In this document: positions 2,287-35,019 of the stretch, piece after piece | How the letters are laid out: each line of letters begins with the position of its first letter | Numbering within the stretch: the first letter of the stretch is position 1 | Origin: a bacterium | Lineage (GTDB): Bacteria; Elusimicrobiota; Elusimicrobia; UBA1565; UBA9628 | Direction: 5' to 3' | Assembly (NCBI GenBank): GCA_021846045.1 | Contig: JAJZCM010000015.1 | Span: forward strand, 1-37,354 | DNA: 37,354 nt | The notes under the pieces: generated by a model | Seen by the model: the letters and a program-made list of their open reading frames with translations, nothing else | Told to the model about the DNA's origin: nothing | Databases searched by the model: none | Made by a program: the position numbers and the translations under genes

Positions 2287-2298
2287 TTTAGGTTGACC

Positions 2299-2784
2299 TT
2301 ACTGCGCGCCGGATTGCTGGTACCAATATTTAGGAGCGTGAGGATTAAGAGGATAGCGGAGAGGCGCAGTCGAATCCACAAAAGCGATTACTTGATGCCC
2401 TCGGATCACATAGCCCCAGCCGCCGGTGTTTTTAATCTTTCCGCCGTCAACCCTGCCATTTCTTAGAATAGTCGACGGGTAAACCGTGACGAGGCGGGCG
2501 TTTCGGTAGCCCGGAATCCCCAATTCGACGATTGGAATTTCAAATAAATATTTAGGAACCAAGGATTGAATGTCGCGCGGGATTGCGCCGTTGTCATGGT
2601 AGTAGGCGGCTATCGCGGAGTTGATATTGCCCAAAGACGAAAGAGTCTGGGATTCATCCGCTTGGACTTGGACCTTTAAAGCCTCCCTATCCATCGCGCG
2701 AGAGGTGGAGTCATCAAAAAGTTTCGTTGAAGACGCGCAGGCGGCAAAAGACAGCAGAGCTGATAAGAGAAAAAACTTTTTCAC
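2299..2784 (-). CDS. Lipoprotein with pseudopilin/GspG-like C-terminal region
   Basis: GTG start overlapping the mnmA stop. Lipobox-like SALLSFAAC. SAIAAYYHDNGAIPRDIQSLVPKYL...NTGGWGYV resembles type II secretion pseudopilin globular domains. Confidence 0.6.
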   Translation of the reverse strand: MKKFFLLSALLSFAACASSTKLFDDSTSRAMDREALKVQVQADESQTLSSLGNINSAIAAYYHDNGAIPRDIQSLVPKYLFEIPIVELGIPGYRNARLVTVYPSTILRNGRVDGGKIKNTGGWGYVIRGHQVIAFVDSTAPLRYPLNPHAPKYWYQQSGAQ

Positions 2785-3854
2785 CGTAAAACCTCCCTGA
2801 TTGTTCCTCCTCCGACGACTTGCGCGCCACGGTAAAAAACCGCCGATTGCCCCGGCGTTATCGCTCTCTGAGGAGAATCAAAATGAACGCGAATACGCCC
2901 GTTTTCCATCGAAAAAAACTCCGAAGACGCGGGCGCGTGGCGGTGACGAATGCGAACTTCTGCGAAACCTTGAGCAACAGGACCTCCCCCGGTCCAGCTC
3001 ATGTCGGAAACTTCGCAGGAAGACGCCATCGTCTCCTCTTTTTCTCCGACAATCACCGTCTGACTTTGAGGCTCCAATCGCACGACGTATTTCGGCTCGG
3101 CCGTCCCCGACACCAAGCCTTTTCTTTGTCCGATCGTATAACCCGCAGTTCCTTGATGACGCCCCAATTCACGGCCTGAAACGTCCTTAATCGGGCCGGA
3201 TTTAAGCGCGGGTTGAATTTCCGAACTTAAGGGATGAGATTTGACAAATCCGCGATAATCTCCGTTGGGAACGAAACAAATTTCTTGACTCTCGGGTTTG
3301 TCCGCCGTCTCAAGCCCAAGACGCCTTGCATAGTCCCTCACCTCGGGTTTCGAGAGTTCCCCAACGGGGAAAATCAATCGGGATAATTCGCGCGAACCCA
3401 AATTGTAGAGAAAATAGGTCTGGTCCTTGTTCTCATCCCGTGCCCGGTAAAGTTTCCCGTCTTGAACCCGCGCGTAATGACCGGTGGCCAAAAACCGGGC
3501 GTTCCAAGCCTCGGACAGGCCCAACAGATGCCCAAATTTGACGAAGCGGTTGCAGAGAGCGCAGGGGTTGGGCGTATCCCCGTGAAGATACGACTCGACA
3601 AAAGGACGAATGACCTTGTCTTCAAAAAGCTCATCGGCCGTAATCACATAATGCGGAATATTGAGGTGAGACGCGACCGCTTTCGCATCCGCGATATCGG
3701 CCGGCGAACCGCAGCATCCAAAGCCCGTCGGAGCGCCGGGTAAAAGCTGGAGGGTAACGCCAATCGTCTCAAAACCTTGCTCGACAAGCAGAGCGGCCGC
3801 CACCGAGCTGTCCACGCCGCCCGACATCGCGACAATCGCCCGTTCTTTATTCAT
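2781..3854 (-). CDS. mnmA: tRNA-specific 2-thiouridylase MnmA
   Basis: AMSGGVDSSVAAALLVEQGFETIGVTLQL PP-loop; TPNPCALCNRFVKFG; LATGHYARV; KDQTYFLYNL; ESQEICFVPNGDYRGF; GYTIGQRKGL. Confidence 0.95.
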   Translation of the reverse strand: MNKERAIVAMSGGVDSSVAAALLVEQGFETIGVTLQLLPGAPTGFGCCGSPADIADAKAVASHLNIPHYVITADELFEDKVIRPFVESYLHGDTPNPCALCNRFVKFGHLLGLSEAWNARFLATGHYARVQDGKLYRARDENKDQTYFLYNLGSRELSRLIFPVGELSKPEVRDYARRLGLETADKPESQEICFVPNGDYRGFVKSHPLSSEIQPALKSGPIKDVSGRELGRHQGTAGYTIGQRKGLVSGTAEPKYVVRLEPQSQTVIVGEKEETMASSCEVSDMSWTGGGPVAQGFAEVRIRHRHAPASSEFFSMENGRIRVHFDSPQRAITPGQSAVFYRGAQVVGGGTIREVLR

Positions 3855-5008
3855 GCCGCAACCAAACGGACTGAACGCATTTTTTTAACCACGTCCGGAA
3901 AAAGTTGAATAAACCGGTCGACTTCTTCTTGTTTTGTTCTCCAGCCGGTTGAAACGCGCAAAGCGCCCTTGATCAAATTTTTGGGAAGCCCCATCGCTTT
4001 CAACACATGGGAGGGACTTGAAAGCCCAGACTGGCAGGCCGATCCGCTTGAAACTAAAACCCCCTCCAAATCAAGCGCGATGGATAAGGAATGACCATCT
4101 AAGCCTTCAATTGAGAAATTGGAAGTGTTCGGCAGACGCTTGGCCCCGCCGCCATTTAAGAAAACGCCCTCAACTGAAAGGCACGCCTTCTCAATTTGTT
4201 TTTGCCAAACCGAATATTGAACGGAGTTGGGCAATTCCGCCAAGGCCAATTTCGCGGCTTCTCCAAAACTGACAATTCCAACGACGTTCTCCGTTCCACC
4301 CCTGCGTCTTTTTTCTTGAAGCCCGGCGATGAGCGGAAAAAGTTTGACCCCGTCGCGAATATAAAGCGCTCCCGCGCCTTTAAGCGCGCCCAATTTGTGC
4401 CCTGACACGGACAATAAATCCGCGCCCCAAGTTGAGGCCGTAATTTCAATTTTGCCGGCGGACTGAACTGCGTCGGAATGGAATAAAACGCCTTTTTCTC
4501 GGCAATAAGCCGCTATTTTTTCAATGGGCTCAATGGTCCCGGTCTCGTTATTGGCCTGCATAACCGAAACCAAGGCCGTCTCCTCGTCAATGGCGTCAAA
4601 GAGAGAATCGCAGTCGATAAGTCCATCCGAGCGAACTTGCGCTTCGTAGATTCTAAATCCTTGACTCGACAAAACCGGCAACATCTCCCGAACGCTGTCG
4701 TGTTCAATGGAACTCACAATGATTTTTTTTCTGCCGCTCTGTTGAAGAGAATGCCAAGCCGCCCCGTAAAGCGCGGCGGAATTGGCTTCCGAGCCGGAAG
4801 AGGTAAAAACGATTTCCCGCGAGCTTTTCGCCCCTAAAAGGCGCGCAACACTCTCTCGGGCAGATTCAACGGCGCGCCGCACTTCTTGGCCAATACGGTA
4901 CGGACTATTGGGATTGGCAAAGCCGTCTCTTAAATAAGGCGCGACCGCTTGCGCCGCCTCTGGGCGGATAGGGGCCGTCGCGTTATAATCGAGGTAAGCG
5001 GGTTCCAT
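3851..5008 (-). CDS. Cysteine desulfurase (NifS/IscS family)
   Basis: MEPAYLDYNATAPIRPEA; SGSEANSAALYGA; MQANNETGTIEPI; HSDAVQSAGK; SVSGHKLGALKGAGALY (PLP Lys); SSGSACQSG (active Cys). Start placed at 5008; the ORF-track extension to 5155 overlaps the neighbour. Confidence 0.92.
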   Translation of the reverse strand: MEPAYLDYNATAPIRPEAAQAVAPYLRDGFANPNSPYRIGQEVRRAVESARESVARLLGAKSSREIVFTSSGSEANSAALYGAAWHSLQQSGRKKIIVSSIEHDSVREMLPVLSSQGFRIYEAQVRSDGLIDCDSLFDAIDEETALVSVMQANNETGTIEPIEKIAAYCREKGVLFHSDAVQSAGKIEITASTWGADLLSVSGHKLGALKGAGALYIRDGVKLFPLIAGLQEKRRRGGTENVVGIVSFGEAAKLALAELPNSVQYSVWQKQIEKACLSVEGVFLNGGGAKRLPNTSNFSIEGLDGHSLSIALDLEGVLVSSGSACQSGLSSPSHVLKAMGLPKNLIKGALRVSTGWRTKQEEVDRFIQLFPDVVKKMRSVRLVAA

Positions 5009-6932: not shown

Positions 6933-9900
6933 TTATAGAACATTCTTTCTTCGCTTTTTCTTCTTAAAAATCGCGGCAAAAATCCCCGCCGCGGTTCCGA
7001 AGAAAAGCGCTATTTTGGCGGCATAGGATAAAATCCTACCTTTAAGCGACAGCGCCGCATGAGGCGTAAAGGAAACCATAAGGGCGGGCTCTAATTCTTC
7101 CAAGCGGCGAATATAACGTTTCCACCAAGAAACTTGGCGAGTCAAAACCTGTTCGCGCGCCCGATCGGCCTTAAGGCGAGATTCAATTTCTTGCTGAGAA
7201 AGGACCCTGATCTCCCGCCCATAGACGTCTTCATGGAGCCGATCCGCCGCGACTTTGGAGCCGGAATCCAACGCCTCGTTTTCCTTTCTCATCCGTTCGA
7301 TCTCGATCTTTCTTTTTTTCAGGCTCGCCAAATCGCTTTTCCTTGCCGGGAGGTCCTTTTCTATTTGGTCGACATATCCGCGAGCTTCCTTGGAATCAGA
7401 TTGATATTCCTTGGCGCCGGCATCTATTTGAACCGTTTTCTGGGTGCGGTTGACCCAAATATCCTCGGGCTTGCCCGAAAAGACGGTCTTCCCCGAACCG
7501 TCCGCATTAGGAGACAAGCCCAGCTCCTTGTCGCTTAAAGCCTTGGCTAACGCTTTTTCCCCAACCGCTCCATTCTTTTGAGATTCCTCGTAAGGTTTAT
7601 CCCGTCCCTGCATTTCATTGATGACAACCTCGGACACCCCGCCGCGGAAATGGGCCAAGGTTCTTAATCTCGCGGCATTAATGTCTTCCTGATAGTAGCG
7701 AAGTAGACGCTCCAAAAATTGAGCTCCAAAATGAATATCCTTGTCTTTATACCGCCCGCTTAAAGACGCTTCGCTGTCTCCAGGCATGAGCGTCGATTGT
7801 CCCACGCGCAAATCGGGCGGAAATTGGCTTAAGTCATAATAGGGAGTGACCGGGTCCGGAAGGAAATTAAGAACATCGAGAGCCCCGGCGACATTGCGGA
7901 AAAAACCATGATGTTCCGTCGCCCCGCCTTCGGTCTTATACATAGCGACGCGCCCAAGATAATGACTAAATCTAGGATCTCGCCCCGCCCATTCCGCGGG
8001 GAAACCCACGATTTCGCGCGGAACCTCCATCATCAAGCTTCCCCAACGCCACGGCATCACGCCCCAGTATTTTTTGAAGGGAAGATGGAAGGATACGTTT
8101 TTGGCGCTCTTTTCCAAGTATCTCTGATTTAAAAGGACGGGATAGTTTTTTCCGTCGATCAAGGCCTCGTAATGGCTGACGCGCAAGGCCGGGTTGATCT
8201 GGTTCTTGGATTCAAACACGTTTTTCTCGCCCTTAATCGTCTTTGATTTCAATGTCCAGGACTTCGCCGCTTTTTCCATTTCCGAGGCGCTGTCATAGTG
8301 ATCGACCAAGCGCCCTTCAGAATCCATGATGGCGGCATAAATCGGCCCGCGCACGTACACGGCGGCTTTCCGTGACGACAAGCGGTCATCGAGAACGGAG
8401 CGTCCGTAAACCGGGGAAGCCTGGGCGTGGAGAAGCGTTTTATCCGAAGCAAAGCCCAGAATCAAATCGCGACTGCGGTAGAGGCTCCACGTCTTCGAAT
8501 GCCGTTTAATTTTGAACGCATCCTCCACCTGTTTTTTGGCGTCCGTAAACACCGCGGATTGAAGTTTCAAATCATCGCGAGCCGTATTCAATTTCTTGGA
8601 AAGCGAGTTGACATATTTTTGCTCGCCCTTATATTTTCCATTCGAGGCCAATTCTTTTTTAATCTGCTCATCCAGCCGCTGAGCGTAATCTTTATCTGAT
8701 TCCTTGTCTTTTTTAGGATACTGATCATGAGTATCCGCTTTGATTTTTTCCGACATCTCATTAGAAACTCGAACGCCGTCCAGCATCGCTTTCTCGGCTT
8801 CTTTTTCTTTTTTCTCGGACTCCCCTTGAGCTTGTTGGGCTTTAATTAATTTCAGTTGCGCGACCTTAAGCCCCGCATCCGCGTCCGACAGGGCCTTTTT
8901 AGCCGCGTCAAAATCATCCCGGTTTAAATAAATTTCCGCAACTTCTCCTCTCTCATTTCTCATAAAACCGTATCCGGCCAATTTCAGCTCCACGTATCCG
9001 GCCCGAAGTTCCGCCCGACGCCGAGAATCGAAGAAATCCGCCAAATTCGCGGCTCCTTTTTTAGAGAGATAAATCCGGCTGAAATCTCCCTTCATGGAAG
9101 AAGCCTTGAGAGATTCGAGGGTCTCGAATTTATCCGAGGGGAAAGCCGCTTTCCCCGTATAGACATAGACTTCGTATCGGTCCGGAGACCTGGCCCAAGC
9201 CGCCAAGGCCGGCAGTCGGTAATGCAAGCGCCCTGCATCTTTCGGATCGGGAGCCTCAAAGAAAAGGACTTTCCCTTGGCTTAAAAGACCGTGGGAACCG
9301 AAAAGTTCTTGGACGGAATAGCCGTTTTTGCCGTCGTCTGCGACGAAATCATGCCGGCCAAGGCGTTCCGCCAAATCAATGACGTGAGAATCTCCCTTGA
9401 TGCCGTTTTGCGTTTCAGATTTTTGCCGCTCAAAAGCGTCCGAACCTCCGACAAACTCGACGTTCGGATTCGCTTCGAGGAAATAGCGTCCGTTAATTTT
9501 AACGATTTCGTCTTTGCTTTTGTTTTTAGGATTCATGCGGTCTTTAATCTCATCGAGACTGAGCCAACGCTTGACCGTCCACAAACGGCGGCCGTCCTTA
9601 TCCATCTGGGTCTCGGCGTAAAGGGGATAAAGTTTTGATCCATGGCTGAGCCAAGAGGCCTTCTTGTCTTCCAGTTGCGCGATTTTAAGCGCGACGGCGT
9701 TGATGGACTGTTCCGATCGCCCCTCCCATCTCTCGGCAAAGAGCCGGGATTTTTCAAGCATAATCAAGGCGTCCAAGGCGAGAATCCCTCGCCCGGATTC
9801 CTTAAAATCAATTTGGCGGTTGAGACTCTTTCTGGCGTCATAGAGAGCATCCAGCGTGCGCATGAGCTCCACGTTTCCTTGGACCTCTTTTAGGTCCAAG

Positions 9901-12900
9901 GTTCGGACCAAATCTTCGTCAAAAACTTGCTGAGCCTTGAGATAGTTGTCCAAAAGCCCGTCTTTTAGGATAAATTCGTCGTTTTTCAAGGGCGAGGCGA
10001 AATAAGAATCAATCAATGCGTCTTTGGCCAAAATCAATTCTTGGCGATCCGCTTCAAGGGCTTTAAAGGCGGCTTCCGATCGAGGAGAAACCGAGACCGC
10101 GTTCCAATACGCATCACGAAGGTCCAAGGCGGCTTGGGAATATTCTGTCCGCTTTTGATCGCTTGAACTCAATTCTTCTTCCAAATCCTGGCGCAAAAAC
10201 GCTAATTGCGGGTCCTTTTTTAAGATTTCGGTCTTGAGCGCTTCAAGGCCAAACATCAGGAGATTTCTCTTCCCGCGCGCGTCATTTTTCGCCAAGAGGC
10301 GCAGTCTTTCATCCGACGAGAAATTTTCCGCTGTCGCATCCTTGGAGTCGCGGATCGCGGCGCTGTAAAGGCGAGCCACTGAATCGACGGAATCAATCAT
10401 CTGCCGGGAAATTCCCCATTTTTCAAGATAATGATCTTGGCGGAGGATAAAGTTCGGGTCTTCCATGCGATCCGCCCAATAGCCCAAAAGCCCGCGATCC
10501 GATGGATTTTTGGGCAAACCATGGTTTTCCAAAACGCGCTGGTCCCCCAAGCTCAGATTCTTAAGCAAGGGATTCGGCGCCGAGGAGTTTTCTTTCCGCC
10601 CCAAGGCTTTGAGTTCCGACACCAAGGAAATAAAATTGGATTTCAAATCCGCCGACTGAGTGATCAACTTTTCCCAAGTTTGAACTAAATTTTTCCTTGC
10701 CTCCAAGAAATCTTGCTGAGCCTTGGGCGATTCCGGATTATGATTGGCGGTCCACTCTTTCTGCTTTAAGTCGCTGGCCGCCTCATCCAACAAACGGCTG
10801 TCGGCCTGAACTTCCTTCATTCCACCGGAAACGCGGGCCATTTGAGTATAGAGAACTATTTCAAGTTTTTTAAACTGCCCCTGGGCCTTCAACTGCTCGC
10901 GAATGGAGTTGGATAAAATATCGGTCAACCCGCGTTCAATTTCCTGCGGGTCGGGGGCTTCTAAAAATCCGCCGAAAATAGGGGTTCCGCGGAAAATTCC
11001 AAAGGCGGCAATCGGCGTAATCCCCTGATAACTCATGTGTTCAGCCAGCACATCGGCGCGAATTTGGTTCATGAAAATGTCTTTCTCGTTCTGAGGCCCA
11101 AAAGCCTCTAAACCCAACATTCGAGCAATGCGCGCTTTACCCGCCGGAGAATTAATTTCTTCAACCAGATAAGGTAAATCGCCGGAGGAGTCAGTTCCCT
11201 TAAATTCCGGAACAAGATTCGATAAGAGGCGCAAACGCTCTTCCATCGTCTGCCCCTGAGCCCGCGAGAGCCCCAACAACGCCCAGATCTCTTCCGATTG
11301 AGAGAGCGTTTTTTGGCGAACGGAATTAATCATATCCGCCCAATCAGTTCCGACTTCTTTCCCATGATGCAATTGAATCCAGTTAAGAAAACGGACATTC
11401 TCCGTGAAATCGGCCAACTCCGAATCGGCCAACGCCGCCGAGCGCTCACGGGCAATTTTGTCCAAACGCTCGGCCTTATCCTGGGACAATTTGGCCAAGG
11501 CGATTAAATCCGGAGCCGGGGTGTCCTTGTTTTTGAGGCGCAACTCGATCCAGGGCTCCAAAAATCCGCGATTAATCGGAGTTTCATCCAAGGTCTGCCG
11601 GGCGTAAAAATAGCGCATGAACATTTCCGCCGGAGCCTTATCAAATCCTGGAGCGGGAATCGGGGGCAAGGAATCCAAACGGGGAGTGCGGGTCACCTTT
11701 TCTTCTCCATCGATCAGACGGCGCCGAAGTTCCGCAAAATTGGCGGGCAGGGAAGCGGAATTGTCCTGTACGGAGGAATTTCCCTCAAGACTGAGAAGAG
11801 AGGCTTGAATGGCGGCCTTGTCTCCTTTTAATTTTTCCACCTTGGCGAAATCAAGCGAATCCCCCTTTGCCGACAATCTTTGAATCTCGGAATCGATCAT
11901 TTGAAGGCTGACCTGGCTGCGCGCTTGAAGATTCGCTAAATGAGCATCGAAGGAATCTTTCTGCCTTTCTTCCATTAAAAGTCTCAGGCGCGCGGCCATC
12001 ACCTTATCGGCGCGGCCCGAGTCTTCCGCCGACAAGGCGCTAATTAATCGCCCGATCGTCCGCGCCGCCAGCGAAATCGGATCGGCTGAAACATCCTGAA
12101 CCTTCAGATTTCTATCAACCATCTCTTGATAAGCCCTGGCCACTTGAACGCGAGCCGCGAAAATAGTCTTTTGGGCCGCAACCAGATTCTGATCCTTGAG
12201 AACTCCTTGAAGTTGTTGATAAGCCTTCTCCGGAGAGATGTCGATGGACAGCACGGAATCCGCCGGACGCCCCATCAAGACGTTGAGAGCTGAATGAGCC
12301 TCGTCGTTAGTCAAAACCATCTGAGCGCGCCACAGTTTCGCGTTGAAGATTTCCTTTTGGATTTTGTCGGCTTTTGCGCGGTCGCCTAAAGACCGGGCTT
12401 GGGAGAGCTTTTGCTCAAGGCCGGGAAGAACTTCTTGATCCACCTGGGCGATGACCGACTGAGCGGCTTTGGCTTGAACGATATCTTGATACATTTGAAG
12501 AGCCGTCTCGACCTTGAGTTTCGTCTCCAAAGCCCCGTAATAGGCGGATTTGCCCTTGTCGGCTTTGACTTGCAACTCTTTAAGCTCTCCCGGCTGAAAG
12601 TGCGCTCCCGGAATCGGTAAAATCGGAAATCCGGTAAAGCCAAAAGAAGGCAAGAACCCGGCGCCGGTGGCGGTTAAATCCGCTCCGATCATGAGGTTAA
12701 TCCAGAATTTTTGTGTGATGTGATTGTCGGCTTTCGCCAAAGCCTGGAACTCTTCTTGATGAAGGGCCAAGGCTTCCAAGGACGAATTTTGAAACGCAGT
12801 TTGAACGGCGCCCTTTAAGTCTGAAACGCTGAAAGGCGGCGAATCCGAAACATTTTTTCCGCCGACCGCCTCATCCATCTTGGCCCAGGCGCCGGACGCA

Positions 12901-15900
12901 GCGGCGAGGGACTCTGAATTTACGGTCGCCTGGGCGTTCAAGTCCCACAGGTTAATGGCCTGCCTAAGCTCGTTTCTTGAAATCAAGCCGTTGCGATAGG
13001 CCTTAAAGGCAAACTCTAATTCGTTGCTGGTCCGCGGAAGAGCCGCAGTCATTTCCTCGGCCGTCTGCCCCCAGACAGCGGCTTCTTGGCGCTCATTATT
13101 GGCTAAAAGACGGTATTGAGAATGGATGTCCTCCATTTCCCTGAGATCAGCCTCTTTTTTAAACAAATAGCTCTTATTTTTATCCTTGGACGACGGATCA
13201 TAGAAAGGAAGGCGCAAGGTTCCACCGACGCCGAAAATCTGTCCCGCCATTAAATCCTGGATTTGAGTTCCAATGCCGAAAGTAAATTGATCGACAAATG
13301 AAATCCAGTCCATGATGTTAAAGCGATCTTCTCCGATGCGGTCCTCAAGAGAAGTCTTGTCCAAGGACGCGAGAATTTTCTTCAAACGGTCGGGGGCGGA
13401 CACAAACGAGTGGATTTCCTTGACTAAATTTTGAACGTCCGCAAGATTGAGATCGTCAAACGGCGTTGGGGAATCCGGATTTTTTCCGGCCATGATGTTA
13501 TAGCGCACGCGCGCCTCGCTTAATTTTTCAAGCGCCTCCGCCAGCCGCGCGTTGGCCTTGCCCTTTTCGATGACGGAAGCGGCGTTTTGGCTCAAAAACA
13601 CCGCGCGCTGGGCGGCAAGCCGAGCCTTGACAATTTGAAGAGCGTTTTCCTCCCAATCCTTCGTTAATTGAACCAACCGCGATTGGAGCAAAAGACCGTT
13701 CTTGTAGAGAGAGACGACCTTGCCGTCCAAAAGCTCCTTCTGAGTCTTTGAGAGAGTCACCATGGTCTCGGTGCCGCTCATGAAGCCTCCGGTGGCGGCC
13801 AATTCTGCCGGATTATTTGAAACCGGGCCTGAAACAAAGCCAGCGTCTCCCACCACCTTGACGTTATCTAAAATCGCACCCGCCGCTCTTAAATCCTTGA
13901 TATCGTGGTCCAAGGTTCCAATTTTTTGTTCAATCAGCCTTCTTCCGACGTCCTTGGCGAAGACCGCTTTAAGTTGGTTAATATCTTTTTGGCCTTTTTG
14001 GGGCTTGAGAAAACCCGTCATTCGCTTTTGATAGTCCTTGAGGGCTTTCCCCCCGTTTAAATCATTGGAGGCGCTGTGGGTCACATCATTCCAAAGCTGA
14101 GAAAGACTGGCCGAGGTGTTGACCATCAAAGACAGGCGGTTATTGTAGCCGACAAAGGGAGAACCGTATCCAACTGACACATCAGTTCTCTTGGTCAATT
14201 GCTTGCCAATCTGCGCGTAGTAGGCGTCCGCCGACCCCAACATCTGCCATTGGGCGCTGAAAACAATTCCGTTTTGGGGAAGTTTCACCGACAACTGATC
14301 AATGGCGATATTATACTGTTGCCCCAACTCTCCGGTCGCGGTGTTGGTGATATCAATCAAGGGGTGTTTCGCATCGTCATAAATGGTAAAGCCTTTGAGA
14401 ATGGTCGCCCCCAAGGTCTGCTGGGCAATGTCGTAAGTGCCGGCGTAATTGGCGTAATAAAGGTCCACGGTAAATGGATTTTCGTCATTTTTAGAAACTA
14501 TTCCCGCTTGTTTGAGAAGAGACGCCACGTCGAATTTAGGTCCGACCTTTGTTTCATAAAAGTTTGCGCTCGCCCCATGCGCGGCGATATCGAAGGTTTG
14601 GTTGAGGCTCGGGTCAAGACCGGTGAAGTCGAGATTGGCGGTTTCAAAAAACTGCCGCGGATCTTTTGCGAACAAAGCCTGCTGGTCGGCATCCAAGCTC
14701 ATGACAGGGGTCAATTTAATTGAAGTCTTGGCGTTCGCCCCGTAGTAATAAGGCTGATTGGCAGAATTTTGCGCCGCCGCGTCTCCAAAACCCGTCAAGC
14801 CGACGTAAAGCTTTCCGTTCATCAAAAGCATCGCGTAATCATCAAAGATAAGAAGACGCGACTCATTGGCTTGGGACCCAAACGACATATTCGGAGGAAC
14901 GTCCAAAATATCGTGATGGATGATCGCCTCGAAATAATTAACGTCATTTTTGCGCAAGGTCTCAACTTGAACACCGATACCCTTGTCTCCCCAAGGGGCA
15001 TTGGAAGCTCCGCCGGTTTCCGGTGGAGAATAGGTGTCATACGCCGTCACGCTCAAATTGCTGCCCATCACATGGGCAACATTCCCCAAGGTCACTTGAT
15101 TGGTCGAACTGAGTCCGTAAGGAACGCCAAACCCGGTTTGATAAACCAAATAGAAGCCGTCTTCGGAATCCCCCAGATTCATAATCTGCGCTCCGGGAAT
15201 CAGTTGGGAGATGTTTTGGGGATTGGAGAGAATGCTTTGCGCCAAGGATCCGATATCGGCCGAGGAAGCGTTTTGCCCGCCGGAAAGGCTTGAAAGAATA
15301 TTATGGACAAAATCAGGGAAGCTCGATTTTTTAATCACTAAGGCCGAGGCCCCGGAAGAGGAGTTAAGCCCCATCCCCCATCCCGAGTCGCTTAAGTGAA
15401 GGGAAGCAATCTCTTGCTTAATATGATTGGGCAATCGATCCCATCCGTCATCCTTTAACTTATCAAGCAGATGAGTCAACCGGTCCTGCTTATCCTGAAC
15501 CAAATCCATATCCGCCTTGAGGATTCTGTCGGTTCGAGAAAGCTGGTCCTTTGATTGAGTCCACAGATGGTTGGATTCAAGAACCTTGCGGGTGTCATCC
15601 TGAATCGAGGAAATCGCCTCCGAAGTTCTTCTCAACGCGCTGTCATAAGGGCTGTTGAGTTGCCCCATCCAGGACAAGAGTTGCGATTTCGTGCTATTGA
15701 GGCTGCTCATCGTATTTTGAAGCGCCGTCATCATCGAATTCATCGCCGACAAGTCGCCCTGGTCAACCGTGACCCCCGAGCCGTAAACCTGGTTAGCCAT
15801 GGCCTGATAATAGGTGGAAAGCAAATTGACCGTCCCCAACGACCCGGGATCGTATTGATTGATTTTGAGATTGTAAAAATTGATTCCTTCTTGGAGAACG

Positions 15901-18900
15901 GACTGAAGGGAATTGAGCATCGCGATTTGATTGGCGTAAACTGTCGCGGTCGGAGGGCTGTTGCCGCCTGAATTGACGTAGGCCTGGTCCTGTTTTAATT
16001 GCGCCTGAGCTTTGTTTAAGGCGGCAGTCGCATCATTTAAGAATTTTTCGACCTGGGGAATTTCAGTTGTGAGTTCCTGCTGGGAACTTTGAACCGTCGA
16101 AAAGGAATAGAGAAAGCGCGCGATGGAATAAGAAATGGAAGGAGAATTAGCGCTGCTTCCGGCCGATGGCGCCAAGATTTTTGTCGCGTCCAAGGCTAAG
16201 AGGGCCAATTGTTGCGAATTAGAAACCGTCGGAGAGGGCTGATGCCCGGTTTGAACCGCAAGGCCGCCTCCCCCGCCCACATTGATAGGAGATCCGAAAC
16301 CCGCTTGACCCGCGATATTTTTCAACTCGGAAACCAAACCCATCAAATTCCCATTATTAGTCACGGAGAGAGAATAAATCTGGTTATATCCCGCTTGACT
16401 TGCCGCGACGTTAGTCGGCAGTTGATAGGACGACAGATTGTATTTCCCCCCTGACAGGGTCTGGATTTTCGTCAAAATTTGGTTGAGTTGCGCGTCCTGA
16501 TTGTTGATTTCCTTGACGCGCTGATCCATTTCAGTCGTGTAAAGAGTGGTTTTTTTCGGAAGGCTGTACGGCCCGCCGCCGGGATAATTGCTGTCTTTTA
16601 AATAATCCACGGTCTCGTTTCCGTTAAAATTCGGGTCTTTTCTTTCATTGACCTGGGTTAGATTTGTTGAAACCGTCTGTTGAAGGTTGGTGAAATTGTT
16701 CTGCCAGGACTGCAAACTCGAAGCGGCATTTTTGGAATTGCCGCCCAAAGAAATGAGCCCCCCGGGAATGGTCTTATCATTGAGCTGCTGGGTCTGGGTA
16801 ATGAGAGAATTTTCGGCGCTGAAAAGTTCCTGATAGGTTCCATTCTGGGATACTTGCTGAACGGAAGACTCTTGGTAGGGAATGAGGGTATTTTCCAAGC
16901 CGCCTTGAATGGCGGTCAAGGGAGCGATGACGTCGTTTTGAAGCAAGTTTTCCTTGCGGTTAATGAGCGCCTGCACCGCGTTGGTCGGGGGATTGGAGTT
17001 GGCATTGGGATATTGCGCCACGAAGGTCTGATCAGACTGCACATCATTGAGAATGTTTTGCACCATGTTGACCGCTTGCTTCATGGCCGACTGGGCCTGA
17101 GGGACGGTGTTTTGAAGCGCGCTTTGAATGGTGGTCACAGTCGTCTGGGCTTCGCTTCCCTGAATGACCAGCCAAGCTGCCTGCGGCAAGAGGGAAGCGA
17201 TTTTTACCAAATCGAGGGAAGCCTGGAAAGATTGGGGCGTCCCGTTATTGGGAATCTGGACGTTTTCAATATCTGCGCCGTAATTGGCAATTGTGGTCTG
17301 AAGCTGGGTCATCGAAAGTCCTGAAAGCTGGGGCAAGGCCGTGCCGCCGGCCTGGGTGATCTGAGAGGACAGTTGATCCATTTTAGCGATGATGGGGTTG
17401 AGGGATGTTTTCGCTTGGCTTAAGGTTTGGCCGGCCTGGGCTTCCCACGCCGGCAAAGATTGCGGATGGGATCTCCCAAACTCATCGGTCACGGTAATTT
17501 GATTATTCGGATCCAACATGGCCTCAACCGAGTTAAGATCTTGTTGAAAGGTATGAAGCTGTCCTTGCCAGTAAGTCTTGCGCGCGCTTAAAATCTCGGA
17601 GAAGCTCATTGAATTCGAAATGCCCGGGCCTCCCGGAACGTCCTTGATGATCATCGGCCAGGCTTGAGTGGGCGCTGTCTTAAGCTCGTTCAGTCCATTC
17701 TGGGCCGATTGGAGATTAGTCTGAACCTCGCTGAGGATGATTTTAAATTCTCTCAGGGAAAAAGCCGACGGGTCGTTGGGGTTTCCGTTGGTTCGCCATT
17801 GGGACACCTGCCCCAGCTCTTGCTCGCGAAGTTGGAACTTGCTTTCTAAAGCCTGCGCCTCGGAATCAAAACTCCCGGTTTTGACTCCCTCATGGGATGC
17901 AATCGTCGCCATCACGGAGGGAAGCACGCTTTGAACGGCGGTGAAAACTTGAACTGCGGAAGAAGCCTCGTTAAAGTCGGAAGTTAATTGACTTTGCTGG
18001 GTCTGATCGGCCTGGGTCTGCTGAACCGTCTCCTGTTTCCATTGAGGGAGATTGGACTCCGCCTGTTGAGCCGCCGCTTCGTTTTGCTGGGACAAGGTCT
18101 GGGACTGAGTGATACTTTGGATATTCGTGTTTAAAAGATTCTCCATTCCGCCGATGGCATTTTCCGCCGCATTGATTTCACGAAGCCCCAAGGCAAAATC
18201 CATGACTGCCGAAACCTGGGAAAGGCTCTGGATGAAATTCATCATGTCATTCCCGTTTCGGCGATTATTCAAGGCCTGATCCCGCGCCTTGGACACCACT
18301 TCAAGCGTTTTTCTAGTTGCATCTCTCATCTTCATCTGCGCTGAGGCATTGGCCCTCAAAGCTCTAATTTCCTTAACCAGGCTTTCGATTTCTTTTTGAG
18401 TTTCCGGATTGACCGGCGCGATATCGGCCCGCGAGTTTTTATCATCAATTCCGATTTTTTGGTCCAAACTGCTCAAAACCGATTTCAACATCCCGGGGCG
18501 AATCCCCTTATCCTCGGCGTATCCGATGCGATCTTCCGCTCCCCTAGGCACAAGGGTCTTCAATTTATTTTTTAGCTGATGGAGACGTTCGTCGGAATTG
18601 CGGTCGTGGCGGCTTAAATCGCGGCTTTCCGAAAGCTTTGAGCGAACATAGCGCTCGTTTTGGGCTTGCCTTAATTTAGCTAACTGGGCTTTATAGGCCC
18701 TGAGCTCGCCGGGGGTCAAAGGCCGGTTTTGGGTCTTTAGCGCCGCTTCGTTTTTTTGGACCGAGGCCAAGTCTTTTTGAAGCTTAAGTTCTTGCGCGCG
18801 CGCGGCCTTCATCTCCTCGCTAAAATTCCCCGCCGACTTTTCAAGCTCTTTAAGGCGCGCCGCCCTTTCCTTCGGGGTCTTTTTGTAAAGATCGGGATCG

Positions 18901-20927
18901 AAAGGAATCGGCTTATTGGGAGCGGATGCCGTCGTCGTTAAGCCTATGGCGGAAACGCCGGCAGTGTGGGAATTCAAAGTGTGCATTACCGCATCGGATA
19001 AGTTAAATCCCGAAGCCGATTCGGCTTTGTAGAGAAGAATGTTTCCCCAGGTGATCGCGCCGCCCCAAGGAACAAGGCTTTGTCCCTTCGGAGCCTCAAA
19101 GGCCGAGAAAAGCCCGTGAAGGCCGTGAAAATCATGCCCCGTTACGACATGCCAGGCTGGGCTGAGACCCGTGTCAATCTGGGTTCCGTAGGAAAGAATC
19201 CCTTGGATTTCAGAGCCGACGGTCAATAATCCTAGGAAAAATTTGAGGTCCTGCCAAATAAAGAACTTCCAGAATTCACGGGCAAAAATGGCCGAGGCCA
19301 CGGTCTGAGTCCAACCGACGGAATCCGATGGATGTTCCGCTTCAAGCCGGCGGCGATGCTGATCCAGCGACTGGGGCAAGGTAAAAATGGTTGAGAGAAT
19401 GAAGGTGTTTAAGATCGGGCCGAGAACCAAATCCTTCATCAGTGCCTGAGTGGCGGCGGCTACGACTGGAGCAAAAATCCCACCCATCCAGGGAATACCG
19501 GAAATAAAAACAGGAAGGCTGTTGGCGCCCGCAACCAGAAGCGGCCCTATCACGGGAGCTGACAAGAGACTTAAGTGAAGAATCGCAACTCCCGGGGCCA
19601 AGGCGCCCAAAATTCCCATCGCCACCGCTGAGGCCACCGCCATGATAAGCCGCCGCCTTAGAAAAGCGAGAAGCGGCAGGGGAGCAACATGGCCGAACAT
19701 TCTCACTGCGCGGCCAAGTCCGGTCGCGAGAAAACGCGAGGCCAAGGTTTCGCCTGCGCCCGATATCGCGGTTTCGCGCAAAACGCGGCGGAAAAATTTT
19801 TCGGCGTTCTGGGTCTCTACGACTAGCCCACCCTCGGCATCGGCCAGGCTTAAGAAATCCTCGGTTGAATGGGCGAAAGTATAGCTGGCGTTTTGCCGGA
19901 AATAACCCAGGACGAAAACGTCGAACAAATGATAGGGAAAACGGACAAAAAAGCCCAGCAGGTGCTTCTGTATCTCGAAGCTTCGCTCAATCCGGCCCTT
20001 CCACCCGTCTTCATAATGCAAATTCGCCAACTTTTGGAATCCAACATGGTATTTCTGCGCGTCGAAATGTTGGAAGCGCTGGGCATTAAGCCTTTGAAGC
20101 CCTAAATAAACGGAGTCCCATTCGGCATTGGAGGAGCTTTCTTTAAGCCCGACCTTGGAAGCAAGTTTTATAACGCGCGCGCGCGGTATATGGAACTGGC
20201 GGGAAATTTGATCGATGATTTGGGAAGTCTTGGCATTCAAGGGCAGGCGGGAAAGTCCGGAGTCATACTTCAAGCCGGCGACTTTTCGGTAGCCGAGCAT
20301 ATTCTCATAGAAAATTGAAACGCCCGGAGGGCCTTTGGAAGATTTCGGAGGCAACGCCCCTCCAAAGTCGCCCGGAGGCGGCCCTAGCGGCGGCCCTCCG
20401 TCTCCAATTCTCCCCGCACCATCAAAAAGCGCGTTGCTTGCCAAGGCCGCAGACTCGGGAGACCCCGGAGAAGGCGAGTCAGCATTATCGTCATTCCGGC
20501 GACCGAGCATCGGCGAGGAAGCGCCGCTTCCGAGTTTGTTGGAAAGCGGCTGAAAGCCGGAATCCGACCGAGCGATAACGCGAGGAAGCGCCGTTTCCAG
20601 ATTCCGAAGGGGAACGGCCGGACCACCGCGAACGGACTGGACCCCGGCTTTCGTCGGGGTGACGATGGGGGAGTTAGGGACTCCTAACTCGCGTTCGCGG
20701 GAAGGGAGCACCGCGTTCGAAGGAGGAATTTCAGCGCCAAATTGAGACGCCGCAGACGGATCCAAGGATTGTTCAGGAAGAGAGATGGCGTTTCCCAGCG
20801 GATCGGAAGAGTCTTCTTTGGGGGCGTCAGCGGCTAAAACCGTGTAAAAACGGGCGCCCGGAGACAATAAGATCAAGCTGAGCGCCAAAAAGGCCGAGAG
20901 AAACCGCTTGAACTCTTTTTTTATCAT
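6933..20927 (-). CDS. Giant (4664 aa) exported protein with coiled-coil, TolC/outer-membrane-efflux-like and beta-rich segments
   Basis: Single uninterrupted ORF. Signal peptide MIKKEFKRFLSAFLALSLILLSPGARFYTVLAA; hydrophobic N-terminal region around aa 400-520; Q/N/S/T-rich coiled-coil stretch; aromatic/glycine beta-rich stretch; two TolC-like helical regions (RVRYNIMAGKNP..., HSALNVLMGRPADSVLSIDIS); C-terminal TM and KKKKRRKNVL. Confidence 0.85.
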   Translation of the reverse strand: MIKKEFKRFLSAFLALSLILLSPGARFYTVLAADAPKEDSSDPLGNAISLPEQSLDPSAASQFGAEIPPSNAVLPSRERELGVPNSPIVTPTKAGVQSVRGGPAVPLRNLETALPRVIARSDSGFQPLSNKLGSGASSPMLGRRNDDNADSPSPGSPESAALASNALFDGAGRIGDGGPPLGPPPGDFGGALPPKSSKGPPGVSIFYENMLGYRKVAGLKYDSGLSRLPLNAKTSQIIDQISRQFHIPRARVIKLASKVGLKESSSNAEWDSVYLGLQRLNAQRFQHFDAQKYHVGFQKLANLHYEDGWKGRIERSFEIQKHLLGFFVRFPYHLFDVFVLGYFRQNASYTFAHSTEDFLSLADAEGGLVVETQNAEKFFRRVLRETAISGAGETLASRFLATGLGRAVRMFGHVAPLPLLAFLRRRLIMAVASAVAMGILGALAPGVAILHLSLLSAPVIGPLLVAGANSLPVFISGIPWMGGIFAPVVAAATQALMKDLVLGPILNTFILSTIFTLPQSLDQHRRRLEAEHPSDSVGWTQTVASAIFAREFWKFFIWQDLKFFLGLLTVGSEIQGILSYGTQIDTGLSPAWHVVTGHDFHGLHGLFSAFEAPKGQSLVPWGGAITWGNILLYKAESASGFNLSDAVMHTLNSHTAGVSAIGLTTTASAPNKPIPFDPDLYKKTPKERAARLKELEKSAGNFSEEMKAARAQELKLQKDLASVQKNEAALKTQNRPLTPGELRAYKAQLAKLRQAQNERYVRSKLSESRDLSRHDRNSDERLHQLKNKLKTLVPRGAEDRIGYAEDKGIRPGMLKSVLSSLDQKIGIDDKNSRADIAPVNPETQKEIESLVKEIRALRANASAQMKMRDATRKTLEVVSKARDQALNNRRNGNDMMNFIQSLSQVSAVMDFALGLREINAAENAIGGMENLLNTNIQSITQSQTLSQQNEAAAQQAESNLPQWKQETVQQTQADQTQQSQLTSDFNEASSAVQVFTAVQSVLPSVMATIASHEGVKTGSFDSEAQALESKFQLREQELGQVSQWRTNGNPNDPSAFSLREFKIILSEVQTNLQSAQNGLNELKTAPTQAWPMIIKDVPGGPGISNSMSFSEILSARKTYWQGQLHTFQQDLNSVEAMLDPNNQITVTDEFGRSHPQSLPAWEAQAGQTLSQAKTSLNPIIAKMDQLSSQITQAGGTALPQLSGLSMTQLQTTIANYGADIENVQIPNNGTPQSFQASLDLVKIASLLPQAAWLVIQGSEAQTTVTTIQSALQNTVPQAQSAMKQAVNMVQNILNDVQSDQTFVAQYPNANSNPPTNAVQALINRKENLLQNDVIAPLTAIQGGLENTLIPYQESSVQQVSQNGTYQELFSAENSLITQTQQLNDKTIPGGLISLGGNSKNAASSLQSWQNNFTNLQQTVSTNLTQVNERKDPNFNGNETVDYLKDSNYPGGGPYSLPKKTTLYTTEMDQRVKEINNQDAQLNQILTKIQTLSGGKYNLSSYQLPTNVAASQAGYNQIYSLSVTNNGNLMGLVSELKNIAGQAGFGSPINVGGGGGLAVQTGHQPSPTVSNSQQLALLALDATKILAPSAGSSANSPSISYSIARFLYSFSTVQSSQQELTTEIPQVEKFLNDATAALNKAQAQLKQDQAYVNSGGNSPPTATVYANQIAMLNSLQSVLQEGINFYNLKINQYDPGSLGTVNLLSTYYQAMANQVYGSGVTVDQGDLSAMNSMMTALQNTMSSLNSTKSQLLSWMGQLNSPYDSALRRTSEAISSIQDDTRKVLESNHLWTQSKDQLSRTDRILKADMDLVQDKQDRLTHLLDKLKDDGWDRLPNHIKQEIASLHLSDSGWGMGLNSSSGASALVIKKSSFPDFVHNILSSLSGGQNASSADIGSLAQSILSNPQNISQLIPGAQIMNLGDSEDGFYLVYQTGFGVPYGLSSTNQVTLGNVAHVMGSNLSVTAYDTYSPPETGGASNAPWGDKGIGVQVETLRKNDVNYFEAIIHHDILDVPPNMSFGSQANESRLLIFDDYAMLLMNGKLYVGLTGFGDAAAQNSANQPYYYGANAKTSIKLTPVMSLDADQQALFAKDPRQFFETANLDFTGLDPSLNQTFDIAAHGASANFYETKVGPKFDVASLLKQAGIVSKNDENPFTVDLYYANYAGTYDIAQQTLGATILKGFTIYDDAKHPLIDITNTATGELGQQYNIAIDQLSVKLPQNGIVFSAQWQMLGSADAYYAQIGKQLTKRTDVSVGYGSPFVGYNNRLSLMVNTSASLSQLWNDVTHSASNDLNGGKALKDYQKRMTGFLKPQKGQKDINQLKAVFAKDVGRRLIEQKIGTLDHDIKDLRAAGAILDNVKVVGDAGFVSGPVSNNPAELAATGGFMSGTETMVTLSKTQKELLDGKVVSLYKNGLLLQSRLVQLTKDWEENALQIVKARLAAQRAVFLSQNAASVIEKGKANARLAEALEKLSEARVRYNIMAGKNPDSPTPFDDLNLADVQNLVKEIHSFVSAPDRLKKILASLDKTSLEDRIGEDRFNIMDWISFVDQFTFGIGTQIQDLMAGQIFGVGGTLRLPFYDPSSKDKNKSYLFKKEADLREMEDIHSQYRLLANNERQEAAVWGQTAEEMTAALPRTSNELEFAFKAYRNGLISRNELRQAINLWDLNAQATVNSESLAAASGAWAKMDEAVGGKNVSDSPPFSVSDLKGAVQTAFQNSSLEALALHQEEFQALAKADNHITQKFWINLMIGADLTATGAGFLPSFGFTGFPILPIPGAHFQPGELKELQVKADKGKSAYYGALETKLKVETALQMYQDIVQAKAAQSVIAQVDQEVLPGLEQKLSQARSLGDRAKADKIQKEIFNAKLWRAQMVLTNDEAHSALNVLMGRPADSVLSIDISPEKAYQQLQGVLKDQNLVAAQKTIFAARVQVARAYQEMVDRNLKVQDVSADPISLAARTIGRLISALSAEDSGRADKVMAARLRLLMEERQKDSFDAHLANLQARSQVSLQMIDSEIQRLSAKGDSLDFAKVEKLKGDKAAIQASLLSLEGNSSVQDNSASLPANFAELRRRLIDGEEKVTRTPRLDSLPPIPAPGFDKAPAEMFMRYFYARQTLDETPINRGFLEPWIELRLKNKDTPAPDLIALAKLSQDKAERLDKIARERSAALADSELADFTENVRFLNWIQLHHGKEVGTDWADMINSVRQKTLSQSEEIWALLGLSRAQGQTMEERLRLLSNLVPEFKGTDSSGDLPYLVEEINSPAGKARIARMLGLEAFGPQNEKDIFMNQIRADVLAEHMSYQGITPIAAFGIFRGTPIFGGFLEAPDPQEIERGLTDILSNSIREQLKAQGQFKKLEIVLYTQMARVSGGMKEVQADSRLLDEAASDLKQKEWTANHNPESPKAQQDFLEARKNLVQTWEKLITQSADLKSNFISLVSELKALGRKENSSAPNPLLKNLSLGDQRVLENHGLPKNPSDRGLLGYWADRMEDPNFILRQDHYLEKWGISRQMIDSVDSVARLYSAAIRDSKDATAENFSSDERLRLLAKNDARGKRNLLMFGLEALKTEILKKDPQLAFLRQDLEEELSSSDQKRTEYSQAALDLRDAYWNAVSVSPRSEAAFKALEADRQELILAKDALIDSYFASPLKNDEFILKDGLLDNYLKAQQVFDEDLVRTLDLKEVQGNVELMRTLDALYDARKSLNRQIDFKESGRGILALDALIMLEKSRLFAERWEGRSEQSINAVALKIAQLEDKKASWLSHGSKLYPLYAETQMDKDGRRLWTVKRWLSLDEIKDRMNPKNKSKDEIVKINGRYFLEANPNVEFVGGSDAFERQKSETQNGIKGDSHVIDLAERLGRHDFVADDGKNGYSVQELFGSHGLLSQGKVLFFEAPDPKDAGRLHYRLPALAAWARSPDRYEVYVYTGKAAFPSDKFETLESLKASSMKGDFSRIYLSKKGAANLADFFDSRRRAELRAGYVELKLAGYGFMRNERGEVAEIYLNRDDFDAAKKALSDADAGLKVAQLKLIKAQQAQGESEKKEKEAEKAMLDGVRVSNEMSEKIKADTHDQYPKKDKESDKDYAQRLDEQIKKELASNGKYKGEQKYVNSLSKKLNTARDDLKLQSAVFTDAKKQVEDAFKIKRHSKTWSLYRSRDLILGFASDKTLLHAQASPVYGRSVLDDRLSSRKAAVYVRGPIYAAIMDSEGRLVDHYDSASEMEKAAKSWTLKSKTIKGEKNVFESKNQINPALRVSHYEALIDGKNYPVLLNQRYLEKSAKNVSFHLPFKKYWGVMPWRWGSLMMEVPREIVGFPAEWAGRDPRFSHYLGRVAMYKTEGGATEHHGFFRNVAGALDVLNFLPDPVTPYYDLSQFPPDLRVGQSTLMPGDSEASLSGRYKDKDIHFGAQFLERLLRYYQEDINAARLRTLAHFRGGVSEVVINEMQGRDKPYEESQKNGAVGEKALAKALSDKELGLSPNADGSGKTVFSGKPEDIWVNRTQKTVQIDAGAKEYQSDSKEARGYVDQIEKDLPARKSDLASLKKRKIEIERMRKENEALDSGSKVAADRLHEDVYGREIRVLSQQEIESRLKADRAREQVLTRQVSWWKRYIRRLEELEPALMVSFTPHAALSLKGRILSYAAKIALFFGTAAGIFAAIFKKKKRRKNVL
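20481..20665 (-). repeat. Degenerate/composite relative of the 94-bp element inside the giant gene
   Basis: Minus strand has CGTCACCCCGACGAAAGCCGGGGTCCAG (plus 20637-20664) and a second half GGATTCCGGCTTTC...GCCGGAATGACGA split by extra sequence. It contains an imperfect ~32-34-bp direct repeat (20500-20531 and 20565-20598). Terminal GTAAYT repeats are not evident. Confidence 0.6.
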
Positions 20928-22453
20928 GCGTAGCAGGAAACCGAGACAAGGCCGCCTTTAAAAACTCCTTGGATATTTTGAGTCAATCGGGGATCAGGGG
21001 CGGGCTTTGAGCCTGAGTCCGGGCGTTTAAGCGCGCGATAGGTGATGAAAGAAAACAAGAATTGCAAGACGTTCGATGCCGCGACGAGAATCAGATCGAT
21101 GTGCTGGGCCGGATTTTGCCAAGCCTGGGTTCCCCCCCAGACGACAAAACACGCGGCGATGAGGCAGAAAATTAAAACAAAGCCGGGGGCAAAACTATTC
21201 GGTTTTTCTCCTCGACGAATGGTCAGCAGATCCGGGACAAACAAGGATAAATAAAATCCTTGGACCAATATTTGGATCCCAACGCTGATTAAGGGCAATG
21301 GAATGGGCAAGAAAGACGCGATCAAAGAAGGCATGAAAGCGGCCCAGCCGAAATACATTCCAAAGCCCGCGGCGATGAGAAGAGGCGCCGTGGCCAAGGT
21401 GATTTGAAGAGAGCGGTCCGTCTTGAGACTGTTAAACCATTTTCTAATCCAAGAGCCGTCATGGGAAGGGACGCTTCCCTGCGATTTCTCTTTCGGGAGA
21501 AATTTCGCCAGCATGATTCCCACGGCCAAAACGGCGGAAACCGACAAGGACTCCGAACCCCATAAAAATTTATCAGCCGCGGTTTGGGCCGGAGCGACGA
21601 CAAGCCCAACCATAAGATTTGCCGCAATCACCCCGTAAGTTCTCCAATCGTATTTCCTATTTTTGATCAAATCGCGAAGCTCCGGAATCGCCATCACAAA
21701 ACCCGAAGCCATGCTGACCCAATACGCTCCCCGCGCAAAGAGAGGCCAAGCCGCCGCCAAAAAGGCCAAGCTCCCATGAGCCGCTGAAGCGTTATGAAGG
21801 GCCTGGGCATAAGCAGGGACCGCCACCGCCGCCGAAACGCCCACGGCGCCCGCAGCCACCGAGGATTTTTTAAGCCCCGAGCGCAAGAACCACGGGATTT
21901 TCCCGGTTGATACATCCCCCGCAGGCAACGCTTGGAAGGGAGAGTCTTCTCCGTCATAAAGCCGCCTTATCGCTTGTAAACGATGAGAAAAAAAGCCGGA
22001 AGCTGAGCTCTTATTTTTCCCGAACACGCGAGAGCCTAAGCGTCCTAAAATCGAGTTTTTCGCTTGCGTCTTGGTTTCCGACCCAAGACTTCTCTGAGCC
22101 GGCAAGCCGCTTTCACTATTGCCGCTTTCGCCTAGAGGACGGACGGCTCCGGCTTCTTCTGGAACTCTTGATTCCGTCTTCAACTGAAACGGCAAAGACC
22201 TAACCCCTTCCATCTTAACCGACGGGGTCAAGGGCGCCAAGAGAGTGGATTTAAACCCTGTCTCAGATACGTCCGGCAGAGAAGGAACCTCCGAGTTTAA
22301 GCCGCCGGAAAGAACCGGCACGGGTTCGACCGCGGAGTCCGCCTGCTGTCCGATATCCTTGGCAAGAGCTTGATAGCTCTCCCCCGGCCACAAAAGCCCT
22401 AGGCAAAGGGCAAGAATAAAGGCCAATCCCCGCTTAATTAACTTCTCTTTCAT
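20924..22453 (-). CDS. Exported multi-TM protein with PQ-loop/SWEET-like repeats
   Basis: MKEKLIKRGLAFILALCLGLLWPGESYQALA signal. Repeated YWVSMASGFVMAIPELRDLIKNRKYDWRTYG and FYLSLFVPDLLTIRRGEKPNSFAPGFVLIF resemble PQ-loop motifs. Stop overlaps the giant's start (ATGA). Confidence 0.6.
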   Translation of the reverse strand: MKEKLIKRGLAFILALCLGLLWPGESYQALAKDIGQQADSAVEPVPVLSGGLNSEVPSLPDVSETGFKSTLLAPLTPSVKMEGVRSLPFQLKTESRVPEEAGAVRPLGESGNSESGLPAQRSLGSETKTQAKNSILGRLGSRVFGKNKSSASGFFSHRLQAIRRLYDGEDSPFQALPAGDVSTGKIPWFLRSGLKKSSVAAGAVGVSAAVAVPAYAQALHNASAAHGSLAFLAAAWPLFARGAYWVSMASGFVMAIPELRDLIKNRKYDWRTYGVIAANLMVGLVVAPAQTAADKFLWGSESLSVSAVLAVGIMLAKFLPKEKSQGSVPSHDGSWIRKWFNSLKTDRSLQITLATAPLLIAAGFGMYFGWAAFMPSLIASFLPIPLPLISVGIQILVQGFYLSLFVPDLLTIRRGEKPNSFAPGFVLIFCLIAACFVVWGGTQAWQNPAQHIDLILVAASNVLQFLFSFITYRALKRPDSGSKPAPDPRLTQNIQGVFKGGLVSVSCYA

Positions 22454-22571
22454 ATTCCTAGGATAGGTTATTTTCATCTTCAAGACATGGGCCAAAGGTC
22501 CTAGAGAAGCCCCCGCCAAAGGACCTAGGCATTTTATGCCTTTTTTTGGTTTTTTGGGGGCCTAGGATAGA

Positions 22572-25715: not shown

Positions 25716-25847
25716 AAAAACCTCCTAAGACTGCGACCAATCAGGGCCTTAATTCTCAAATTACGACCCTAGCTTGATTATACAATTTTACCTCAATTCA
25801 ATATTCCGCAGCCCGTGGTGATGAGCCATGGTATACTATTTGTGTCT

Positions 25848-27332: not shown

Positions 27333-27341
27333 GGAAGAAGC

Positions 27342-28145: not shown

Positions 28146-28295
28146 AATAGAGCTGGCAGTTCAACGCGCCCAGATGGGTCAACGTTCAACTTATCGCAAG
28201 GCCAGAGGGCCCCACACCAACCCTGACAAGATTATAGCAGACCTTGGACAATCCGTCAATAGAAAGAAACGATCGGGGTACATAGGGAAGAAAAA

Positions 28296-29816: not shown

Positions 29817-29823
29817 AAAACGT

Positions 29824-31249: not shown

Positions 31250-31260
31250 TTAGAAAATAA

Positions 31261-34978: not shown

Positions 34979-35002
34979 CCGCCCCGGCTACTCCTTGCGG
35001 AG

Positions 35003-35019
35003 AGAGCCCCGTGGGCTCT
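35003..35019 (+). other. Perfect 7-bp stem hairpin upstream of hsdR
   Basis: AGAGCCC-CGT-GGGCTCT; not followed by a T-run. Confidence 0.6.

Follow-up and report, generated by a model that had tools for sequence, protein, structure and literature searches.

A family of giant exported proteins in Elusimicrobiota with predicted tandem TolC-like units between putative membrane-anchoring ends

Outer-membrane factors (OMFs), such as TolC, OprM and CusC (PF02321; TC 1.B.17), have chains of 472±30 aa (PMC4827864) that form homotrimers and whose helices H3/H7 and H4/H8 run for 67 and 36 residues, respectively (PMC8277102). Each chain has two halves, built from a half-repeat of a hairpin with a ~67- and a ~36-residue helix, and provides four transmembrane (TM) strands to a 12-strand barrel per trimer. 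Giant proteins, abundant but unannotated, have been reported from Elusimicrobiota, where many exceed 5,000 aa (PMC11573180), and from Omnitrophota, whose giant ORFs have been proposed to be adhesins or surface coats (PMC10066038). Here we analyse a giant gene in an Elusimicrobiota contig of 37,354 nucleotides, the whole stretch examined and hereafter called the window, from a 2.0 Mb, 97% complete genome; among the nearest relatives with a name are 'Elusimicrobia bacterium isolate clean4882' and further MAGs.

The initial annotation had described an uninterrupted 14-kb ORF for a protein with a signal peptide, a strongly hydrophobic N-terminal stretch (~aa 400-520), a Q/N/S/T-rich helical section followed by a beta-rich section and TolC-like repeats, and a C-terminal TM segment with a KKKKRRK tail. 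All of these were located in the ORF and its product (Table 1): hydropathy placed a signal-peptide-like N-terminus, the hydrophobic stretch and the C-terminal TM segment, the helical section spans about 15.5-18.4 kb and the beta-rich section about 14.06-15.23 kb, and their order along the chain, helical, beta-rich and then TolC-like, was borne out by the coordinates, which fall along the chain of this minus-strand gene. Orthologues from the same genus share 78-80% identity over the entire length, and substitutions relative to L036 at codon positions 1, 2 and 3 number 664, 349 and 1761 (4,627 codons), and hence the ORF is, by sequence comparison, a real gene far beyond chance; the family is, by the same kind of comparison, under purifying selection. 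Sequence searches of Pfam, NCBIfam and the PDB returned no match for the window protein, and single weak Pfam matches (DNA_pol3_tau_5, Tocopherol_cycl and similar) were dismissed as chance.

Table 1. Positions of the giant gene, the parts of its product and its neighbours; coordinates are those of the window unless a relative is named.
Feature	Residues (aa)	Position	Strand	Remarks
Giant-protein ORF		6933-20927	-	4,664 aa, no internal stop
N-terminal signal sequence	1-34	20826..20927	-	Kyte-Doolittle (KD) hydropathy window aa 9-27
Low-complexity Pro/Ser/Gly linker	35-205	20313..20825	-	poorly conserved
Conserved N-terminal domain	206-700	18828..20312	-	hydrophobic segments aa 425-518 (19374-19655)
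All-helical rod	845-1825	15453..18395	-	AlphaFold mean pLDDT 82.6
Rod helical repeat, copy 1	about 1156-1440	16608..17462	-	hhalign 97-98% to copy 2
Rod helical repeat, copy 2	about 1450-1760	15648..16580	-	hhalign 97-98% to copy 1
Strand-rich, most conserved domain	1900-2290	14058..15230	-	about 20 predicted strands
TolC half-repeat h1	2310-2490	13458..14000	-	hairpin aa 2356-2393; helices 51+28 residues; MAGKNP
TolC half-repeat h2	2491-2695	12843..13457	-	hairpin aa 2547-2576; helices 66+38 residues
TolC half-repeat h3	2696-2895	12243..12842	-	hairpin aa 2738-2777; helices 67+35 residues; LMGRPAD
TolC half-repeat h4	2896-3085	11673..12242	-	helices 49+23 residues; beta-hairpin lost
C-terminal region	3086-4560	7248..11672	-	conserved helical part, then mixed part
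C-terminal TM, KKKKRRK tail and stop	TM 4632-4650; KKKKRRK 4655-4661	6933..7034	-	hydropathy
Upstream exported multi-TM protein, 531 aa		20924..22519	-	overlaps giant's start
Downstream exported protein, 410 aa		5747..6979	-	C-terminal TM + RR tail; genus-level conservation
Downstream putative lipoprotein, 268 aa		5010..5816	-	hydrophobic segment, then WGCGG
RAYT-like genes		L047:431-1336, L053:355-1260, L037:16623-17525 and equivalents in relatives	same as giant	absent from window

Of 341 Elusimicrobiota genomes, 51 carry the family as detected with a profile of the most conserved domain: 46 of the 56 genomes in the window's own order and five more elsewhere within the class; the viral contigs searched held no relatives and a viral fold library gave no significant match. 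Full-length homologues measure 4.6-5.6 kaa across one order (the longest has 5,647 aa), those in other genera and families being about 29-40% identical to the window protein. The long members have both the N-terminal domain with its hydrophobic segments and, where the C-terminus is closed, the C-terminal TM helix and basic tail, while short paralogues of 3.7-3.9 kaa retain the middle and have neither end; nine of the ten short rows form one clade in a maximum-likelihood tree, the other, L040, falling among long members. Wherever the 3' end is closed, the two ends are thus both present or both absent, the exceptions being the split ORFs L038 and L066. This co-occurrence suggests that both ends act in the same membrane and, together with hydropathy, supports the claim of two membrane-anchoring ends; the export signal and the positive C-terminal tail point to the inner membrane as their probable location. 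Tethering would be dispensable in some members, since the short paralogues hold the OMF module without either membrane end.

Because sequence and profile searches of the PDB were empty (the profile of the OMF region had no match among PDB sequences), the fold of this module was first set by profile-profile comparison and structure prediction. With aa 1880-3079 and 33 homologues as AlphaFold input, aa 2389-3049 were modelled at pLDDT mostly 80-94, and Foldseek and VIA placed an OMF fold at aa ~2310-3085: the top 39 Foldseek matches in the PDB were all TolC-family OMFs, with 7ng9_A the best (E 1.9e-5, prob 1.00). By VIA, aa 2397-2888 matched CusC (3pik; Z 16.7, 3.3 A, 333 residues) and aa 2702-3048, in a second, overlapping match that extends into h4, 9j3d_A (Z 16.6), the highest unrelated row reaching only Z 7.6; the overlap of these two full matches indicates more than one OMF protomer per chain. 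The source genome also has several ordinary OEPs, and comparison of the family profile with these related aa 2452-2681 to the OEP second half at 90.5% and aa 2695-2890 to the first half at 42%, with all other regions of the giant at about 2% or less, and the ends of h1 and h3, with the motifs MAGKNP and LMGRPAD already pointed out in the initial annotation, were related to each other at 72%. An L(L/M)G-P motif where first halves end is a further feature shared with OMFs. Pfam OEP (PF02321) matched 6 of 37 family members at E <= 0.05 and, although the window protein itself had no match, L063 (31.7 bits, h3-equivalent stretch) and L041 (27.6 bits, h2-equivalent stretch) lie above its cut-off of 22 bits. 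The OMF fold, a hairpin, a long helix and two stacked shorter helices, repeated, is present in the giant, and in the structural models the domain is very probably OMF-like and its four half-repeats are two OMF protomers in tandem. The likeness to TolC, first noticed by eye in two short motifs, is in this way confirmed by profile-profile comparison, by AlphaFold with Foldseek and VIA, and by the Pfam OEP matches of relatives; OEP similarity is present and the predicted structure is more than disorder and coiled coil, the two points on which the initial annotation had staked its reading.

In length, the h2 and h3 helices match the 67 and 36 residues of OMFs, whereas those of h1 and h4 are shorter. 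Because h4 has no beta-hairpin, the three hairpins per chain do not simply yield the 12 strands of TolC: two chains with three hairpins each would total 12, and a single-chain barrel would require the strand-rich domain to complete it. This domain has the highest mean column identity in the giant (59%), and AlphaFold predicted its strands at low pLDDT. Alternating hydrophobicity was found in 21.6% of windows scored there, compared to 2.7% and 6.5% in two other regions, and part of the domain gave a weak VIA match to the porin KdgM (Z 6.2); the profile of the region had no match in the PDB. On the predicted strands, it is plausible that aa 1900-2290 form an outer-membrane barrel.

On the N-terminal side of the module, the rod was modelled with helices of up to 98 residues and contains, by hhalign, a tandem duplication with a unit of about 300 aa. 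Its fold matches are generic SMC-type coiled coils (Z < 10), and a search for hidden TolC halves by profile comparison gave zero OEP similarity, and hence the idea of six TolC halves per chain was dropped. The N-terminal domain had no Pfam or PDB match, and aa 3086-4560 of the window protein no family or PDB match, in sequence searches; an EmrA hairpin was weakly matched in the C-terminal region (E 0.035). Several motifs recur at the two ends of these proteins. The signal motif L-x-x-(S/T)PGxxxYxxLAA is also found in homologues, and in both the giants and the 531-aa neighbour the hydrophobic core of the signal sequence is followed by a pattern like (S/T/W/L)PGxxxYxxLA (N-termini of L037, L039, L047, L053, L063 and L119; window 20826-20927 and 22400-22480); this pattern is unusual for a plain Sec signal and might be a lineage-specific sorting motif. 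At the position of the linker, some genera have additional TM or alpha/beta modules, and N-terminal extensions in other genera (L042, L043, L044, L039, L053, L051, L047 and L049) carry, ahead of the N-terminal domain, one or more copies of a module with the pattern (A)RLVxVxINLDDxRAHWIFxFxS...KPVRVEIxxxWKGxPxYxFxDAxGR. At the other end, the C-termini of long giants (e.g. L042, L047, L049 and L123) consist of a Pro/Asn-rich linker, W-x-W, the TM segment and (W)xxLRRR near the extreme end, and the 410-aa neighbour ends similarly (WW...FRRSFL).

In the window's genus the gene order is the 531-aa gene, the giant, the 410-aa gene and the putative lipoprotein gene, followed by nifS-like and mnmA genes. 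The 531-aa protein had no Pfam or PDB match in sequence searches, and the putative lipoprotein gave a weak match to CarboxypepD_reg (E 0.006). The giant of genus g3 itself contains, within its N-terminus, a segment homologous to the 531-aa TM protein, which suggests a functional link between the two. The conserved PQ-loop-like neighbour that had been expected is not universal: one genus has the homologous TM segment fused into the giant, and in most genera a degenerate RAYT gene stands upstream. This gene is found on the giant's strand in most other genera, usually with 14-144 bp between its end and the upstream limit of the giant's open frame, and its RAYT-like product combines a degenerate HUH motif with a DnaA-like HTH (Y1_Tnp, PF01797: L047, E 9e-12; L053, E 4.6e-8; in L037 only the HTH was found, Y1_Tnp being unmatched). 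None of 15 aligned copies has an intact motif with the catalytic HUH histidines (NSYVH, GNSVN, QNSVD, GREVH, GRSAS, PGRAL and the like occur instead). A single orthologue scoring >300 bits per genome was found in 32 genomes, mostly on the giant's contig, background RAYTs reaching <= 156 bits. Giant-adjacent copies thus resemble RAYTs in their Y1_Tnp and DnaA-like HTH matches but differ in the degenerate HUH, the one strong orthologue per genome and the fixed synteny, and judging by these sequences are apparently domesticated, catalytically dead transposase relatives. In L133 (G111:C6, 200-4400), a TrkA-like channel, the RAYT orthologue and a dCache-type sensor kinase occur in the usual order without the giant between RAYT and kinase, in what is an apparent empty site; this block implies a role for the RAYT independent of the giant. 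A RAYT with no giant adjacent is also present in G209. An obligate partnership of RAYT and giant was rejected, the former being absent in the window's genus and kept without an adjacent giant in G111 and G209.

Elsewhere in the window, positions 25815-37353 hold, by eye, a type I restriction-modification cluster with HsdM-, HsdS- and HsdR-like ORFs, into which an ATPase gene and small genes of no assigned function are inserted and whose R gene is cut by the contig end. Separated by 2.9 kb, two ORFs (32216-32350 and 35107-35190) have near-identical residues near their start (NESTLSEKPAIEQLVGMGYAFIPGDKLDP), from which we read that the HsdR start was partly duplicated and the copy joined to a TM protein unrelated to it.

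The anatomy of the giant, that is, its ORF, the conservation of the family, the OMF fold and its tandem arrangement, the duplication in the rod and the co-occurring ends, is well supported, and we propose a mechanism on this basis. The giant would be a single exported trans-envelope polypeptide in which aa about 1900-3085 form an outer-membrane module, in which the strand-rich and possibly barrel-like domain precedes two OMF/TolC-type units in tandem, with four half-repeats of which three have beta-hairpins. This module would insert in the outer membrane, with a TolC-like alpha-barrel reaching into the periplasm. On the N-terminal side, the long helical rod and the membrane domain would tether the module to the inner membrane, and on the C-terminal side the ~1,500-aa region with the TM helix and positive tail at its end would be a second inner-membrane tether. 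An OMF channel and an inner-membrane tether, both parts of a tripartite exit duct, would hence be fused in one chain, and assembly would need one, two or three giants instead of separate OMF and adaptor subunits, the oligomeric state and a conduit function being, like the insertion of the module, what we infer from this anatomy. We favour such a fused, inner-membrane-tethered exit duct tentatively, at a confidence somewhat short of even. That one polypeptide would be the complete inner-to-outer-membrane duct, a pseudo-oligomeric channel whose tandem TolC units and strand-rich domain wholly or partly replace the OMF trimer while the same chain serves as tether and both anchors, is a doubtful proposition.

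The alternative that fares best, although we think it unlikely, is that the OMF fold was recruited as structure only, the giant being a mechanical tether or scaffold that joins both membranes with no open conduit. The likeness of the long rod to generic SMC-type coiled coils fits this idea, as do the lost hairpin of h4, the shortened helices of h1 and h4 and the want of a transporter domain: sequence searches recognised no transporter, ATPase, lipoyl or adaptor domain in the giant beyond the weak EmrA hairpin match, and those of Pfam and NCBIfam no energised transporter (RND, ABC or MFS) in it or its nearest neighbours. However, h2 and h3 retain full OMF dimensions, and the high conservation of the strand-rich domain suggests more than a tether.

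A surface protein, with the helical regions displayed outside for contact with other cells and the OMF and strand-rich module as its outer-membrane anchor, is rather improbable. The proposal of adhesins or surface coats for the related Omnitrophota giant ORFs (PMC10066038) speaks for it, and so does the C-terminal W/TM/RR tail, laid out like a sorting signal, which it could be instead of an anchor. Yet no adhesin or carbohydrate-binding domain was found, the co-occurrence of the membrane segments of the N-terminal domain with the C-terminal TM is a better fit to two anchors, and exosortase (EpsH, PF09721) is absent in all ten carrier genomes searched, which leaves sorting of the exosortase (PEP-CTERM) type unsupported. 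A bridge across the periplasm that transports lipids or polymers, distinct from an exit duct of the TolC kind, would be well served by a continuous connection of both membranes in one chain and by N- and C-terminal domains without assigned function, but is very unlikely, given that the folded parts (the rod and aa 1880-3079) bear no similarity to known lipid-transport bridges. Misassembly, a chimera or gene decay, as the split copies in L038 and L066 could suggest, has a negligible probability and is refuted by the same full-length ORF in independent MAGs and by the dominance of the third codon position among substitutions.

Compared to known systems, the fused exit duct that we favour would be a new envelope-spanning build: OMFs appear in reviews as short trimerising chains, and here two protomers would lie in one conserved chain with both ends anchored. 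In place of two halves per chain and a homotrimer, the giant has four halves in tandem within 4,664 aa, with extra domains and membrane ends, and, next to the four TM strands per OMF protomer, the models show three hairpins among its four halves and a strand-rich domain at low confidence. On the structural models it contains OMF units and may work like an OMF, but it is not a standard OMF, because its length, its four halves and the added domains do not fit that definition. No precedent for tandem or fused TolC chains or, among Elusimicrobiota and Omnitrophota, for a protein of this kind was found in the open-access literature searched, and two tandem TolC units between membrane-anchored ends form an architecture absent from the annotated families searched. 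As in AcrAB-TolC and HlyBD-TolC, the envelope would be spanned jointly by a TolC-type element, long helical elements and segments in the inner membrane, in contrast from a single gene and with no recognised RND, ABC or MFS transporter or lipoyl/adaptor domain. The giant would also serve as a natural experiment for TolC symmetry and for the tethering of ducts between the inner and outer membranes. With the Omnitrophota giants and the huge Elusimicrobiota proteins (PMC10066038, PMC11573180) it shares great size, export and few annotated domains; most Omnitrophota giants are reported to show little conservation, their annotated domains being of adhesin type, whereas the present family is conserved along its whole length and has an OMF fold, and so gives a first structural handle on the abundant, unannotated giant proteins of Elusimicrobiota (PMC11573180).
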